DNA from: Chelatococcus sambhunathii
GTDB lineage: Bacteria; Pseudomonadota; Alphaproteobacteria; Rhizobiales; Methylopilaceae
Direction of reading: 5' to 3'
Assembly (NCBI GenBank): GCA_031316315.1
Contig: JADBEO010000043.1
Span: 1-34,687, forward strand
Length of the DNA: 34,687 nucleotides
The notes under the pieces are model-generated. The model saw nothing but the letters and a program-made list of their open reading frames with translations. It did not search any database and was not told where the DNA came from. This document shows positions 6,645 to 11,386 of the stretch, piece after piece (positions within the stretch are counted from its first letter, which is position 1; each line of letters begins with the position of its first letter). A program made the translations under genes and the position numbers.

Positions 6645-6673
6645 ATATACGCGCTTCGGCCTCAGGCCGCAAG
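6645..6673 (-). promoter_or_regulatory. Candidate housekeeping promoter for the rimP-nusA-infB operon
   Basis: On the minus strand CTTGCG (6668-6673) is followed after exactly 17 bases by GTATAT (6645-6650). This resembles the alphaproteobacterial vegetative pattern CTTGAC-N17-CTATAT. The -35 part lies inside the 3' end of the upstream ATP-grasp gene. Transcription would start near 6638 and give a leader of about 95 bases containing the GNRA hairpin. Prediction by eye only. Confidence 0.4.
6657..6669. terminator. Small hairpin with the stop codon as its loop
   Basis: CGGCC (6657-6661) and GGCCG (6665-6669) pair around TCA (6662-6664), which is the stop codon of the ATP-grasp gene on the minus strand. 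The stem is only five G/C pairs and there is no T-run. It is one of several such stop-codon hairpins in the window; a terminator role is a guess. Confidence 0.3.
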
Positions 6674-7834
6674 GTCCGCGGCGCCGGCGCGGCGCGCTTC
6701 GCGCTCGACGGGCCGCGCCGAGCGCCAGACGTCGTCAGGCAGGTTCGCCAGATGCCAGCGGTAGATCTCGCCGAGGCGGCCGTCGCCGACGCCGTAGTTC
6801 GAGACCAGCTGGAGGATGTCCGGGCCGGGGTTCCAATTGCCCTCGATCAGCACCGCGCCGTCCGCCGACAGGCCGATGTCCCAGCCGACGACGTTGAAGC
6901 CTTGGCGGAAGACCTCATGCGCCCGCACGGCCAACGCCTGGGCCTCGGTCAAGTCGGGCACGCGGACGCCGCGCAGCCGGGCGCCGGTCGCGGGGTGGCG
7001 GTCGAAGCGCTCGAGCCTGCCGCCGACGCGGCGCATGCCGCAGCGGATGCGGCCGTCGCGGTCGACGCCGGCGGCGATGTTGCCGGCGTTGAAATTGTCG
7101 ACGGCGCGCGGGCCGCCGCCGTTGAGGCGGATGACGAGGCCGCAGACTTCGATCGCGCCGGGCTCGTTCACCGCCGTCATCACGCGCAGCGTCGGCAGCG
7201 CGCCCGGCGAGAGCGGGACGAGGTCGGGATGAGACTCAGCGATGCGCTGAAGGACGCCGCCGCCTGAGACCGCGGCGCGGATCCTCTGCAGCGCCTCGAC
7301 CGCGCCGAGCATCACGCCGCCCGACGTCCAGCCGTCGCCCTTGCGGCGGAAGCCGGCGATCCCCGCGCCCTTGGACGCATAGTTCGGCTTGGCGATCACG
7401 GCCGTCTCGCCGGCGAGCCAGTTTTCGAGCCCGCTTTCGGGGCCGGAGAAGTCCGGCGGAATCGGCAGGTCGGCGGCGCGGCAGCGCTCTGCGAACAGGC
7501 GCTTGTTCTTCAGCGGGTTCGCCTCGAGCGGATAGGCGGCCGGATTGATCAGGCGGTGCATGCCTTTGCGCGCCGCCATGCCGAGATGGGCGGCGCGGTC
7601 GGGCGCCCGCTCGAACAGACGCTCCTCGCCCTTGTCCCAGCCGTGACGCCAGGCCGCGCGGCTGCGGAAGGCGGTGCGGGCCGCCTCGCCATAGGCGAGC
7701 GCCAGCGCCATGGCGCGGTCGGCTTTCGACCAGTGCCGCCAGAGCTGTTCGAAATAAAGCGCGGTGAGGTCGCGCGGCTCAGGCTCGGCGGCGCCGACCA
7801 GGAGGCGCGGCGGGATGACCCGGAGCGTCAGCAT
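6662..7834 (-). CDS. Sugar-transfer-associated-type ATP-grasp ligase
   Basis: This is an ATP-grasp enzyme resembling the ATPgrasp_ST (alpha-L-glutamate-ligase-like) family; such enzymes activate a carboxylate as an acyl phosphate and couple it to an amine or other nucleophile. The 390-residue product has a helical N-terminal part (residues 1-105). NPLKNKRLFAERC (106-118) begins the ATP-binding lobe, and K149 with the flexible loop YASKGAGIAGF contacts ATP phosphates. The metal-binding end reads VLIEGNWNPGPD, with E331, N333 and N335. The substrate cannot be told from sequence. It starts at ATG 7834 directly after the TAA of the nucleotidyltransferase gene with no intervening base, so translation is probably coupled. 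It is the last gene of the three-gene ligase cluster. Its stop codon is the loop of a small hairpin. Confidence 0.8.
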   Translation of the reverse strand: MLTLRVIPPRLLVGAAEPEPRDLTALYFEQLWRHWSKADRAMALALAYGEAARTAFRSRAAWRHGWDKGEERLFERAPDRAAHLGMAARKGMHRLINPAAYPLEANPLKNKRLFAERCRAADLPIPPDFSGPESGLENWLAGETAVIAKPNYASKGAGIAGFRRKGDGWTSGGVMLGAVEALQRIRAAVSGGGVLQRIAESHPDLVPLSPGALPTLRVMTAVNEPGAIEVCGLVIRLNGGGPRAVDNFNAGNIAAGVDRDGRIRCGMRRVGGRLERFDRHPATGARLRGVRVPDLTEAQALAVRAHEVFRQGFNVVGWDIGLSADGAVLIEGNWNPGPDILQLVSNYGVGDGRLGEIYRWHLANLPDDVWRSARPVEREARRAGAADLAA

Positions 7835-8656
7835 TTACGCCGCCCTCTGCGCCGCGCCGCCCCGGCGCGCGGCGATGACCTCTTCGGCCACCTTCCTGCT
7901 GCGCTCGTGGTCGACGTCGATCGCGGACGCGCCGTCGCTCATGATCACAGGGCGCATCGTCAGGCCGAAGCGCCGCGACAGGCGCCGGAAGCTGTCGTCG
8001 AGCCGCGAGAGGCCGTAGCGGAAGCGGACAATCTCGATCAGGCCGGCCAGGCCGAAGGCCTTCACAACCCGCATCGGATGCTTCACGAACTGGCCGCCGG
8101 AGCGGAACAGCTCCGCCGGGGCGAGCGCCCTGACCGAGCCGATCCAGTAGGCGTTGCAGTTGGAGTATTCGCCGCAGGCGCAGCGGTAGAACTTGCGCTG
8201 CCCGTCGGGATGGGCGGCGAGCACGTCCTCGCGCAGCGCCATGGCGACGGCGACGTCGGCGTGCTCGGCCCGCGCGCGGGCGTCGATCTCCTCGATCGAG
8301 GCGGTCGACAGCAGCACGTTGTCGGAGGTCGTGATTAGCACCGGGAAGGTCACGCTTTCGAGCGCCGTCAGCACGCTGTCGACGAGGTTCTTCGAGGCCT
8401 CGACGACGGTCAGCCTGCCGCTCGCGATCAGCGCCGCGACTTCCGGAACCTGTTCGACGCCCGAGCCGGCGTTGATCGAGACGGCGATCCGACCGACCTT
8501 CTCGCTCGCCGCGAGCGCCTCCAGCACATGGACGATCATCGGCCGGCCGGCGACCGGGGAGAGCGACTTGAACTTCAGGCCGGCGGCCTCGGCGAGCGGA
8601 TCGATCGTTCCTTCGCGCTGGCCGGCGAGGACAAGCGCGGCGAACCGGCCGCTCAC
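7835..8656 (-). CDS. MobA-like nucleotidyltransferase
   Basis: The 273-residue protein has the Rossmann-like nucleotidyltransferase fold of the NTP_transf_3/MobA group, which transfers NMP from an NTP to a phosphorylated or molybdopterin-like acceptor. The N-terminal signature is a variant: LAGQREGTIDPLAEAAG followed by K-x-L-x-PVAGRPMI (residues 10-41), rather than the MobA LAGG-x-S/R-x-G-x-DK form. D112 in TTSDNVLL and D247/D249 in IDVDHERS are candidates for metal binding. A cysteine pair (CACGEYSNC) lies near residue 160. The acceptor is unknown; a sugar or polyol phosphate is plausible given its ATP-grasp neighbours. The start ATG overlaps the upstream ATP-grasp stop by four bases (8653-8656), and the stop abuts the next start. 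It is not the molybdenum cofactor MobA: no mo-genes are nearby and the signature differs. Confidence 0.8.
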   Translation of the reverse strand: MSGRFAALVLAGQREGTIDPLAEAAGLKFKSLSPVAGRPMIVHVLEALAASEKVGRIAVSINAGSGVEQVPEVAALIASGRLTVVEASKNLVDSVLTALESVTFPVLITTSDNVLLSTASIEEIDARARAEHADVAVAMALREDVLAAHPDGQRKFYRCACGEYSNCNAYWIGSVRALAPAELFRSGGQFVKHPMRVVKAFGLAGLIEIVRFRYGLSRLDDSFRRLSRRFGLTMRPVIMSDGASAIDVDHERSRKVAEEVIAARRGGAAQRAA

Positions 8657-9696
8657 GCCGCGATCTCGACCGCGTTCCAGGCGACGACGCCCTGCCGCGT
8701 CATGCTGTGCGCGACGATCGACTCGACCAGCGTCGCGTGGTCGACGCCGAGCGAGGCCGCCGAGCGCGAGATGCTCTTGCGAGACCAGAGATTGCAGGAG
8801 AGGTTGACCTCCATGAAGGCGAGGTCGCCCGTCCTGGGATCGTAGCGGAACTCGAAGCGGCCGTAGTCGAAGGGCCAGAGCTCCTTCGACAGCGCCCGCG
8901 AATGCATCTTGAGCCGCGCCACGAGGATCGGGTCCTCGACCACGCTCAGGGGGTCGCTGTCCTTGACCAGCTGCGGGGTCAGAGCCCGCTTCTCCTCATA
9001 GGACCGCATCTCGCCCGGCGTCTCGGGCGTGTGCGCCATCGGCGGCAGGAACCAGGGCGCCAGGCCCGCGCCGCCGACCACGGGCGCGGCGACGTCGAGG
9101 ATCGGGTGGTAGGCCTCGACGATCACGTCGTGGCCGAGCTCGTGCAGATGCTCGACATGGCGGCGGCCTTCCGCCCAGCTGTCGACGATCTTGACGCCCC
9201 AGGACGCGGAGGAGGCGTTCGGCTTGACGACGAGCCGCTCGGCCGCGAAGTCCGGCTCGCCGATCGGCTGGCCGATGCGGCAGGAGATCCAGTCCGGGGT
9301 CGGCACCCCGTGCAGACGGGCGATCACCTTGGAGAGGTGCTTGTCGTCCGCAAGCCCGCGGATGATCGGGCTCGCGCCGAGGAACGGCACGCTGCGGCGC
9401 GCCAGCATCAGCGGCGCGAGCATCTCGCTGTTCTGGAAGCCGCCCCGGTTCAGGAGGGTGAAGACGAAGTCCACCTCGGGACCCGGCTCGATCTCGGTGA
9501 AATCGTTTGCGACGACGACCCCGAGGCCGATCGCCTCGAGCGTCGTGCGGAGCTCGTGGTGATAGATCGCGTGGTTGCCGTCGACGGGATCCGGCGCGCC
9601 GGAGCTGCGCGCGTGCTTGGCGAGCAGCATGACGCGAAGCCGGGCCTTGTCGGCCTCGGGGATCGTCGCGGGGATGAATTCGGGTCGGTCGAGCAT
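8653..9696 (-). CDS. D-Ala-D-Ala-ligase-like ATP-grasp enzyme
   Basis: This 347-residue protein belongs to the ATP-grasp superfamily near D-alanine-D-alanine ligase. Residues 20-115 form the pre-ATP-grasp region (RVMLLAKH, then DFVFTLLNRGGFQNSEML and PFLGASPIIRGLADDKHLSK). K158 in RLVVKPNASSASWG and E296-V-N298 in FMEVNLSCNLWSRKS correspond to the ATP-binding lysine and metal-binding Glu/Asn. The serine-rich S-x-S segment that ends the Ddl motif is altered, so substrate use probably differs; it is unlikely to be the cell-wall Ddl, which is normally within the mur/fts cluster. It lies 69 bases downstream of the ELM1-like gene and overlaps the nucleotidyltransferase by ATGA. The first codon is ATG 9696; no strong ribosome-binding site is visible. 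The reaction product is unknown. Confidence 0.8.
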   Translation of the reverse strand: MLDRPEFIPATIPEADKARLRVMLLAKHARSSGAPDPVDGNHAIYHHELRTTLEAIGLGVVVANDFTEIEPGPEVDFVFTLLNRGGFQNSEMLAPLMLARRSVPFLGASPIIRGLADDKHLSKVIARLHGVPTPDWISCRIGQPIGEPDFAAERLVVKPNASSASWGVKIVDSWAEGRRHVEHLHELGHDVIVEAYHPILDVAAPVVGGAGLAPWFLPPMAHTPETPGEMRSYEEKRALTPQLVKDSDPLSVVEDPILVARLKMHSRALSKELWPFDYGRFEFRYDPRTGDLAFMEVNLSCNLWSRKSISRSAASLGVDHATLVESIVAHSMTRQGVVAWNAVEIAA

Positions 9697-9765
9697 GCCG
9701 CGAAGCTACTGCTCGCGAATGACCCGTCGGCGACGAATCGATCACGGGAAGATGACGCTGATAGC

Positions 9766-10842
9766 TCAAAGGCTTCCGAGGCCTGCGAGGGTACGGACGC
9801 GAACCGCCGTCTCCGCGAGCTCCTTCTCGGCGAGTCGTCTCAGCGACTCGCCCCCGGCCAGAAGGCCGTCGTTTTCGAGGTCGTCCATGTAGCCGGCTAT
9901 ATCGCGGTTCGACCGGACCAGCCCGGCCCCAACCAGGGCATCCAGAGCGCGTTTCACGGCGCCGCCCGTTTTCGCGGCGCCTTCGATCGCCTTGAACGCC
10001 CGGAGTCCGGGCCCGAGGAGCGCCGGCAGGTGGAACAGCTCGACGGGCCGCGTGGTCGCGGCCGCCTCGACGACCATCGACACGCTGTCGTCGGTGACGA
10101 GGAACGCATCCGCGGCGGCGAGGAAAGCGCGGTAGAGGTTGGGGGCGTTCCCATAGGCCGAGAATTTGACAGGCGCGTCAGCGCCGTCGAGCGCCTCGCG
10201 AAGCGCCGCTGTCGCCGCGGGTCCGGTGCGCGGCGAGGTCGCGACGAGCAGCGACCCGCCGGAACTCTGTGCGCGGGACAGCGCGGTCTCTGCCAGGCGG
10301 CGCGCTGCGTCCGGATCGAGCCGTTGCGGCGGTTCCGAGCCGCCGACGATCACGGCGATCCTCGGCCTTGGCAGGGTGGCAAGAGTCGGATCGACGCTTG
10401 CCTCCTCCATTGAGAGGGTGGTGGAAGGAAGTCGGCAAACGACCACGTTGGGTCGAGCTGGGAGATGGTATTGCGGCGTGGTGACCACGAGGTCGAACCA
10501 GTCGAGCGGCGCCTGCGGCCGGCCGAGATGGAGCAGCCGGGTCCGCCCGCTCGAGGCACGTCGGACCCGGAGCGCCGCCGGCACGGCGCGCTTGCCCGAG
10601 GTTACGACCACGCGCGGCCATGGCGGCGTGAGCTCGGCGCGCGAATCCCGGGTCAGCGTGAACAGCGACCCGCCCGGAAACGTGTTCTGAAGCGCGCCGA
10701 ACTTATTGAAGCGCAGCCGGACCAGGCGCGCCGGCAGGCCCGTCGCGGCGATCACGGCCTCGATCATGGCGTTGTCGCCGCGCCGGTTGCCGAGCAGGCC
10801 CCAGATCGCGGCCTCCGGCTGGTCGTCTTCGCTCGGGGTCAT
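9766..10842 (-). CDS. ELM1-family (Mito_fiss_Elm1) protein
   Basis: The 358-residue product matches the ELM1 family named after the plant mitochondrial fission factor; bacterial members are common in Alphaproteobacteria and have a glycosyltransferase-B-like architecture. Seen here: the N-terminal IWGLLGNRRGDNAMIEAVIAA, the central VVVTSGKRAVPAAL and TRLLHLGRPQAPLDWFDLVV, then a second half beginning PRIAVIVGGSEPP and containing the nucleotide-sugar-like segment FLVTDDSVSMVVEAAAT. ATG 10842 is chosen because family homology begins within a few residues of it; the frame stays open further upstream but there reads antisense to the dihydrofolate-reductase-like gene. It is the possible first gene of a four-gene run with the ATP-grasp/nucleotidyltransferase genes. 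Biochemical role unknown; glycosyl transfer is an inference from fold. Confidence 0.85.
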   Translation of the reverse strand: MTPSEDDQPEAAIWGLLGNRRGDNAMIEAVIAATGLPARLVRLRFNKFGALQNTFPGGSLFTLTRDSRAELTPPWPRVVVTSGKRAVPAALRVRRASSGRTRLLHLGRPQAPLDWFDLVVTTPQYHLPARPNVVVCRLPSTTLSMEEASVDPTLATLPRPRIAVIVGGSEPPQRLDPDAARRLAETALSRAQSSGGSLLVATSPRTGPAATAALREALDGADAPVKFSAYGNAPNLYRAFLAAADAFLVTDDSVSMVVEAAATTRPVELFHLPALLGPGLRAFKAIEGAAKTGGAVKRALDALVGAGLVRSNRDIAGYMDDLENDGLLAGGESLRRLAEKELAETAVRVRTLAGLGSL

Positions 10843-10981: not shown

Positions 10982-11386
10982 ATGCCCGACGTCCGCTCGA
11001 TCTGCGCCATCGGCCTCAGGGGCCAGATGGGCCTCAATGGTTCGCTGCCGTGGGAGGGCAATACTGATCCGGAGTTCACCGCCGATGTCGCCCGCTTCTT
11101 CGACATCACGCGCGGCCATGTGCTGATCGCCGGCGAGAAGACGATCGGCGCGATCCCGGACTTCGCGCGAAACGACCGCACGCTGTTCGTCATCCGCCGC
11201 GACATGCAGCCAGAGAAGGTGCTGGCGCAGTTTCCGGACCGCGTCGTCTTCATCGGCGGCGGCCCGGTCGCCTGGGGCGCCTATGCGCCGTTCATCCGCC
11301 ATTGGGACATCAACCGCCTGCCTTACGACGGCGAGGCCGACCGCTGGTTCGATCCGCAATGGCTCACCGCCGGCGGGCCGGGCTGA
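10982..11386 (+). CDS. Short dihydrofolate-reductase-like protein
   Basis: The 134-residue product resembles dihydrofolate reductase: the N-terminal ICAIGLRGQMGLNGSLPWEG corresponds to the Met20/substrate loop, D35 in TADVARFF aligns with the catalytic acid after a short insertion, HVLIAGEKT matches the NADPH-binding MGRxT segment, and VFIGGGPVAWGAYAP matches the conserved GG cofactor motif. It is about 25 residues shorter than the E. coli enzyme and ends soon after the last strand, so it is a divergent family member and may not act in folate reduction. GGAGG lies seven bases before the ATG. It is divergent from the ELM1-like gene and convergent with the FUSC gene, six bases apart. No thyA is adjacent, unlike the usual folA arrangement. 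Confidence 0.75.
   Translation: MPDVRSICAIGLRGQMGLNGSLPWEGNTDPEFTADVARFFDITRGHVLIAGEKTIGAIPDFARNDRTLFVIRRDMQPEKVLAQFPDRVVFIGGGPVAWGAYAPFIRHWDINRLPYDGEADRWFDPQWLTAGGPG

Follow-up and report, generated by a model that had tools for sequence, protein, structure and literature searches.

Two described systems resemble parts of the locus reported here, a cassette of four genes in a stretch of 34,687 nucleotides from Chelatococcus sambhunathii (contig JADBEO010000043.1, positions 1 to 34,687 of the forward strand; the whole stretch is called the window). The first is the ceramide diphosphoglycerate (CPG2) gene cluster of Caulobacter crescentus (CC_1152-CC_1168), a bacterium in which an anionic sphingolipid partly supports life without lipopolysaccharide (LPS) (PMC12275187; this paper and the others cited by PMC number were available in part, and our statements refer to those parts). 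Mutants of CC_1153, a nucleotidyltransferase described as CofC-like, accumulate CPG and have no detectable CPG2 (PMC11324152), and CC_1152, which we infer from matching descriptions to be the same gene as ccna_01210, encodes CpgD, a cytidine triphosphate (CTP):phosphoglycerate cytidylyltransferase (PMC12275187; PMC13228409). The cluster further includes a ceramide kinase and a predicted cytidine diphosphate (CDP)-alcohol-type transferase, with no ATP-grasp ligase named in the available parts of its description, and the headgroup chemistry of such anionic sphingolipids has been only partly worked out. The second system is KdoT of Acinetobacter baumannii, formerly labelled ELM1-like, a GT-B enzyme that transfers 3-deoxy-D-manno-octulosonic acid (Kdo) from its cytidine monophosphate (CMP) derivative, CMP-Kdo, and in whose SRRT motif the second arginine matters most (PMC12856342).

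The cassette of the window recalls both systems and adds two ATP-grasp proteins. All four genes lie on the minus strand: an ELM1-family gene (ELM1, 10842-9766, 358 residues, counted from a start codon picked within a longer open frame), which encodes a predicted GT-B glycosyltransferase with TSPRT at residues 202-206; a gene for an ATP-grasp protein resembling D-alanine-D-alanine ligase (DDL, 9696-8653, 347 residues), whose subfamily has its own N-terminal motif, DGxHAxYH; an NTP_transf_3 nucleotidyltransferase gene (NT, 8656-7835, 273 residues), a member of the sister clade of the nucleotidyltransferase found in sphingolipid clusters; and an ATPgrasp_ST gene (ST, 7834-6662, 390 residues). ELM1 and DDL are separated by 69 bases, DDL and NT overlap by 4 and the gap between NT and ST is 0, so that the coordinates and spacings of a first-pass annotation of this DNA were reproduced. 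In hidden Markov model searches its family assignments also held, all four proteins scoring above the curated Pfam cut-off (PF06258, 165 bits with a cut-off of 27; PF07478, 26.4 with 24; PF12804, 41.9; PF14397, 113.1 with 31.4). The ceramide kinase, CDP-alcohol phosphatidyltransferase and CpgD of the CPG2 set are absent from the cassette, and genes of the kinase and phosphatidyltransferase types are found on another contig of the same genome.

Our preferred reading, held with moderate confidence, is that this is a horizontally acquired mobile cassette whose enzymes build a headgroup or substituent and fix it to a lipid or glycolipid of the envelope, most likely one of the ceramide (sphingolipid) family. 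Amidoligase clusters reportedly described by Iyer, Aravind and colleagues group ATP-grasp ligases with other small-molecule enzymes. The first-pass annotation did not recognise this exact set as characterised. No characterised pathway with these components was found in the literature searched, and this gene set is not described among the matches listed there, most subscription papers being outside that literature.

Linkage, mobility and spread of the cassette

DDL was searched for in 41 genomes, including 13 of the window's genus (the window's own counted), here called the Methylopila group; identifiers beginning with G, C and L denote our genomes, contigs and fetched loci. A match with E below 1e-150 was obtained in 8 of the 41 genomes, all belonging to the genus (8/13), with counterparts named Methylopila, Hansschlegelia and Chenggangzhangella. 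Six further matches were weak (24-28% identity), and five genus genomes (G002, G003, G004, G006 and G007) gave no match at E 0.001. ELM1, NT and ST adjoin DDL in all eight genomes with a strong match, and in two of them, G001 and G008, ELM1 is inverted yet still adjacent to DDL. In Chenggangzhangella methanolivorans (G008; loci L020 and L115) the reading frames of NT and ST are broken up, through either decay or an error in the sequence, and DDL is intact. Because every partner adjoins DDL in 8/8, even with ELM1 inverted in two, the four genes form a unit. Accidental adjacency, the objection that the first-pass annotation had raised against itself, is excluded by this linkage, by the different genomic sites and by the occurrence of the DDL-NT-ST core in a second order. 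Genes in the fetched loci were called with a simple program that had been trained on the window and that missed genes at lower GC; the partner counts are based on tblastn and are independent of it.

The cassette is a unit whose genomic site changes. The gene rimP is present in 12/12 other genomes of the genus, and the cassette is located between rimP and a dihydrofolate reductase (DHFR)-like gene in three genomes, namely the window's, G010 and G012, the interval holding one extra called gene in G010 and three in G012. In the other five it is elsewhere (G001, G005, G008, G009 and G011); a threonyl-tRNA synthetase gene is its neighbour in three of them, G005, G009 and G011. These five are among the 10 remaining rimP regions, all of which have a short DHFR-like protein near rimP, at a distance of 228-1,903 bases (measured between alignment ends); the corresponding distance in the window is 4,439 bases. 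In none of the 10 does the interval match a cassette gene at E 1e-15. In eight of the 10 the gap is 0.96-1.9 kb and may hold other genes.

Beyond the genus, a scan with the DDL alignment was made using one genome per species, and the best 80 of 106 relatives were analysed. Six are from the Methylopila group, and the rest come mostly from Sphingomonadales, although they also include one Eilatimonas and a few unplaced genomes from metagenomes. All three core genes, DDL, NT and ST, occur together in 33 of the 80 loci and in two orders, those beyond the six of the Methylopila group being mostly from Sphingobium and other Sphingomonadales, and the suggestion that the genes would stay together in distant genera is thus borne out for the core. 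Nearly all core loci (31/33) add ELM1 (6), a family-4 glycosyltransferase (23) and/or a flippase (3, one together with the glycosyltransferase), the identities of the last two being Pfam matches of example copies. Glycosyltransferase and flippase are found downstream of ST, ELM1 upstream of DDL. ELM1 itself was counted as part of the set by the first-pass annotation; it is limited to the Methylopila group (6/80) and stands outside the wider core. Some records end near the module (L123, L132, L147 and L180 among them), and partners missing there carry little meaning. Genomes were also drawn from larger groups (249, 385 and 398 genomes); the phylum-wide draw of 398 contained DDL at E below 1e-100 in 10, all of the same class.

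In the DDL tree (rows outside 310-370 residues excluded) the eight Methylopila-group sequences form one clade (SH-aLRT support 99) placed among sphingomonads, with Sphingosinicella nearest (92). In the NT tree (rows outside 240-300 residues excluded, several long branches flagged) the group again forms a clade (7 rows, 99), to which two Sphingomonas rows and one Sphingobium row are nearest (87); the deeper branches of the two trees are not all firm. The cassette seems to have passed from one bacterial group to another, and a single transfer, most likely from a sphingomonad donor, would account for both trees.

Kinships of the four proteins

The first-pass annotation called NT MobA-like, which did not survive: NT scores 14.1 bits against NCBIfam MobA cut-offs of 151.85 and 164, and a MobA identity is ruled out. 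The same applies to CofC, to which none of the 17 NCBIfam matches of the window NT (E up to 1) belongs. The relatives of NT are instead proteins of about 250-300 residues with 27-39% identity, which occur elsewhere in the order; the window's own genome also has one, as an additional copy. This paralogue (G000:C25; L070, L219) shares its cluster with genes for a DAGK-type kinase, a CDP-alcohol phosphatidyltransferase, a HIT protein, proteins of the LptF and LptG types and a GNAT protein; the contig also carries, farther along, genes for an acyl-AMP ligase, an acyl carrier protein and a serine palmitoyltransferase (673 bits, with an NCBIfam cut-off of 500). Our labels AasR, AcpR, CerK and CerS for genes of this kind denote broad-family matches combined with gene order, and Spt is above its NCBIfam cut-off.

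We fetched 20 loci of the order with an NT of this sphingolipid type. The GNAT gene, in the position of the ceramide synthase, adjoins NT in 20/20, a CDP-alcohol phosphatidyltransferase is present in 16/20 and a second nucleotidyltransferase family, F3, in 15/20, some of the stretches being shortened. The order GNAT, NT, F3 matches CC_1154, CC_1153 and CC_1152 of Caulobacter, and the sphingolipid-type NT is by gene order the counterpart of CC_1153. CpgD was considered as a relative of NT and rejected, since it fits F3 by gene order and by the active-site residues reported for it (PMC13228409), which were compared by eye with L058; CpgD most likely belongs to F3. F3 was not seen in the three ceramide loci of the Methylopila group, within the stretches fetched. 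One of the ceramide-type clusters is that of the window's own genome (L070, L219), which has the NT paralogue and no CpgD-like gene in the stretch fetched, and the headgroup of its sphingolipid may for this reason differ from CPG2.

A branch of the NT tree (SH-aLRT 100) separates 28 sphingolipid-type rows, in which four proteins were entered twice (8/28 rows) and 4/28 rows come from loci whose surroundings were not fetched, from the window NT and 52 others. The window NT is therefore outside the CC_1153-type clade of the ceramide clusters, a type represented in the tree through gene-order matches, and is sister to it. It is this kinship that points to an envelope lipid rather than to an undefined small metabolite. 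The first-pass annotation had left the choice at a small metabolite or a surface glycan. Among solved structures, TTHA0179 of Thermus (PDB 2dpw, E 7.7e-32 with a profile built from cassette and sphingolipid-type rows) comes closest to the combined family; it is alike over nearly the full length and was deposited as a hypothetical protein; its name was not found in the literature searched.

The TSPRT motif is invariant in the eight ELM1 proteins of the module, window included, and aligns with TSRRT of an ELM1 paralogue beside the ceramide genes of the same genome. Compared through this paralogue with the published KdoT motif, the SPRT of ELM1 keeps only the second arginine of SRRT. A glycosyltransferase function, put forward as possible in the first-pass annotation, fits ELM1, because KdoT was formerly labelled ELM1-like and because a family-4 glycosyltransferase sits in the same module elsewhere; ELM1 may act in glycosylating envelope lipids. 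To our knowledge, KdoT has no ATP-grasp or nucleotidyltransferase partners. The only solved structures to match the ELM1 profile were designed repeat proteins, and these short matches were judged spurious.

ELM1 relatives outside the cassette were followed at nine loci, eight fetched (38-50% identity) and the paralogue (38%). Seven of the nine are 0.2-8.6 kb from ceramide genes (acyl-AMP ligase, carrier protein, serine palmitoyltransferase) or from the adjoining ABC transporter gene, a biased proportion, as six of the nine loci were chosen after a sphingolipid-type NT had been seen on the same contig. Six of these seven have 40-50% identity and are 0.7-8.6 kb from ceramide genes, and the seventh is the paralogue; in G003 and G007 family-4 or family-92 glycosyltransferase genes stand between ELM1 and the ceramide genes. 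Equally close ELM1 relatives are present in G005 and G011, in addition to the nine loci. Clusters of the CPG2 type have ELM1 relatives nearby in several genomes of the window's order.

Concerning the ATP-grasp proteins, K158, E282, E296 and N298 of DDL are invariant in an alignment of 32 rows, and K149, D319, E331 and N333 of ST in one of 16 rows; N335 varies among these 16 and is invariant in seven rows of the Methylopila group. The residues listed in the first-pass annotation (K158, E296 and N298 in DDL; K149, E331, N333 and N335 in ST) were correct, and its statement that both enzymes should be active is plausible, judging from conserved residues only; that both are ligases is what their families lead one to expect. 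DDL does not belong to the D-alanine-D-alanine ligases (Ddl), as it reaches 50.4 bits against an NCBIfam cut-off of 243 and 46.7 against 245.65. Solved Ddl relatives align with the DDL profile from about position 59 onward, so that only the ATP-grasp part resembles Ddl and the N-terminal substrate part is different. DDL presumably shares with Ddl the ATP-grasp core and the metal-binding residues. For ST, a sequence search at E 0.1 gave no solved relative, the accession PF14397 is not mentioned in the literature searched, and the surroundings of a PF14397 paralogue in the same genome (contig C55) gave no clear pathway.

Divergent relatives of DDL occur in other settings as well. In L105 (3527-6628) and in L106 (8110-11209) a pair of Ddl-like ATP-grasp genes, about 32-33% identical to DDL, is arranged back to back beside membrane sensor and phosphatase-like genes labelled by eye, which looks like a different and perhaps signalling-linked use of the subfamily. 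In L107 (689-4854) a relative with 29% identity accompanies ABC ATPase, GTPase-like and nitroreductase-like genes, also labelled by eye.

Proposed function and competing explanations

From these kinships a sequence of reactions can be proposed. NT would use a nucleotide, probably the CMP part of CTP, to activate a small, phosphoglycerate-like phosphorylated acid, as its kinship to enzymes of the CC_1153 type suggests. DDL and ST, going by their families, would activate a carboxylate by forming its acyl phosphate, which then reacts with an amine (or hydroxyl) to give an amide-type substituent, and ELM1, by analogy with KdoT, would add a sugar or sugar acid from its nucleotide-activated form while the product is assembled. 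In sphingomonads the family-4 glycosyltransferase would take over the sugar-transfer step of ELM1, and the flippase, where present, would move the product across the membrane. An envelope lipid or glycan is the likely product and a sphingolipid a plausible one, while an amidated phosphoglycerate headgroup is speculative. Thermus phosphoglycolipids with a glyceroyl amide may offer a suggestive parallel for amidated glycerate. Going farther, it may be imagined that the products are an undescribed class of sphingolipids or phosphoglycolipids whose phosphoglycerate-type headgroup is amide-capped and glycosylated, the cassette being a plug-in module among sphingolipid-producing Alphaproteobacteria with interchangeable glycosyltransferases; this extension is tentative, and we consider it unlikely.

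If the preferred reading is true, the cassette adds an amide-forming step that is not described for these lipids in the literature searched, as far as the available parts of the papers go. In a compact mobile set, ATP-grasp enzymes would then be linked with an ELM1 glycosyltransferase and a nucleotidyltransferase of the sphingolipid type; this would offer four testable enzymes and a way into the function of bacterial ELM1 proteins and of PF14397.

It should be noted, however, that several points weigh against the preferred reading. There is no lipid-specific enzyme within the cassette, and in the available parts of its description no enzyme activity is reported for CC_1153 (PMC11324152). Cassette and sphingolipid-type NTs differ at several sites conserved within each clade, among them Asn113/His, Asn166/Gly, Tyr170/Phe and Phe184/Trp (19-21/21 versus 7/7), and the substrate or acceptor of the cassette NT therefore probably differs; also, the solved relatives of NT include users of CTP, UTP and GTP, CTP being the presumed nucleotide here. 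For the ELM1-like protein now known as KdoT an earlier paper left open an assisting, not catalytic, role (PMC10936431). To the biased choice of ELM1 loci mentioned above it must be added that G021 and G039, picked without prior knowledge of an NT contig, show no proximity of ELM1 to ceramide genes. Among the 80 loci, six have DDL without any searched partner (including L180, a record of 3.2 kb) and 12 pair it solely with an unassigned protein of about 475 residues, while most of the Sphingobium loci adjoin genes that resemble TonB receptors by eye. Finally, transfer between the orders is read from midpoint-rooted trees, and the nearest sphingomonads differ between DDL and NT.

Among the other explanations, the one that survives best is tailoring of the LPS core or of another surface polysaccharide, in which NT would make a CMP-activated acidic sugar, ELM1 would transfer it in the manner of KdoT and the ATP-grasp enzymes would amidate the acid with amino acids. 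KdoT itself acts on a lipid A precursor, with CMP-Kdo as the donor (PMC12856342), the NT profile matches KdsB enzymes, a polysaccharide-type flippase is found downstream of ST in three loci and PF14397 is named 'sugar-transfer associated'. The KdsB matches are, however, partial and weak beside that of TTHA0179, and NT is sister to an enzyme of sphingolipid clusters. Moreover, most hosts of the core are sphingomonads, which have glycosphingolipids instead of LPS. We therefore regard polysaccharide tailoring as an unlikely explanation, although one to be kept in mind.

A soluble secreted small molecule, for instance a metal-binding compound, made by ATP-grasp ligation and glycosylation, seems rather less probable. 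Pairs of ATP-grasp enzymes are common in such pathways; by eye, many Sphingobium loci are near TonB-receptor-like genes and a PepSY protein, and the DDL relative of L107 is near transport genes. Against this, TonB receptors are abundant in sphingomonads anyway, no single transporter accompanies the core throughout the arrangements seen, and the kinships of both NT and ELM1 lead to lipid clusters.

The description of CC_1153 as CofC-like (PMC11324152) could suggest a pathway similar to that of the cofactor F420, with a CofC-like nucleotidyltransferase activating a phospho-hydroxyacid and ATP-grasp ligases adding amino acids. The NT paralogue of the same genome does match the CofC model, but weakly (25.4 bits with a cut-off of 105), and the window NT lacks such a match; no cassette gene was assigned to CofD or CofE, and neither a glycosyltransferase nor a flippase fits, which makes this pathway improbable. 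That DDL is a spare D-alanine-D-alanine ligase for peptidoglycan with incidental neighbours, as its PF07478 match and its nearest solved relatives being Ddl might suggest, is the least credible explanation of all, given its scores far under the Ddl cut-offs, the unmatched N-terminal part of Ddl and a core kept across two orders, whose linkage contradicts incidental neighbours.

Arrangements of the module and neighbouring genes

The most frequent arrangement among the 80 loci is DDL-NT-ST followed by the family-4 glycosyltransferase (22/80). DDL-NT and DDL beside the protein of about 475 residues come next with 12/80 each, then DDL alone (6/80), ELM1 with DDL-NT-ST (6/80; four in line and two inverted, NT and ST being broken in one of the latter) and DDL-ST (5/80). 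The remaining ones are the 475-residue protein with DDL and NT (4/80), two DDL copies around that protein (3/80) and the same plus NT (2/80), DDL-NT-ST-flippase (2/80), two DDL (2/80), and single loci with DDL-NT-ST at a contig end, with the rearranged order NT-ST-DDL, and with DDL-NT-ST-glycosyltransferase-flippase, the last in Erythrobacter litoralis SNB-035. One locus (1/80), from Sphingosinicella LHD-64 (L148), combines a CDP-alcohol phosphatidyltransferase, a sphingolipid-type NT, DDL and NT, and there DDL-NT also adjoins a HAD phosphatase, a neighbourhood that speaks for the lipid reading.

The protein of about 475 residues (475 in L104, 9049-10476) is conserved, divergent from DDL and present in 21/80 loci, mostly of Erythrobacteraceae. 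The label PLP had been given to it by eye and is unsupported, as the L104 copy has no Pfam or NCBIfam match at the thresholds used and no solved relative.

In the window, rimP and nusA are located downstream of the cassette on the same (minus) strand. Upstream, on the plus strand, is the DHFR-like gene (10982-11386, 134 residues), whose PF00186 score of 24.3 is slightly below the cut-off of 25. The GC content of the four cassette genes (0.69-0.73) is similar to that of the neighbours (0.67-0.74), and at third positions it is lowest in ELM1, with 0.83 versus 0.88-0.94 in the other genes checked.

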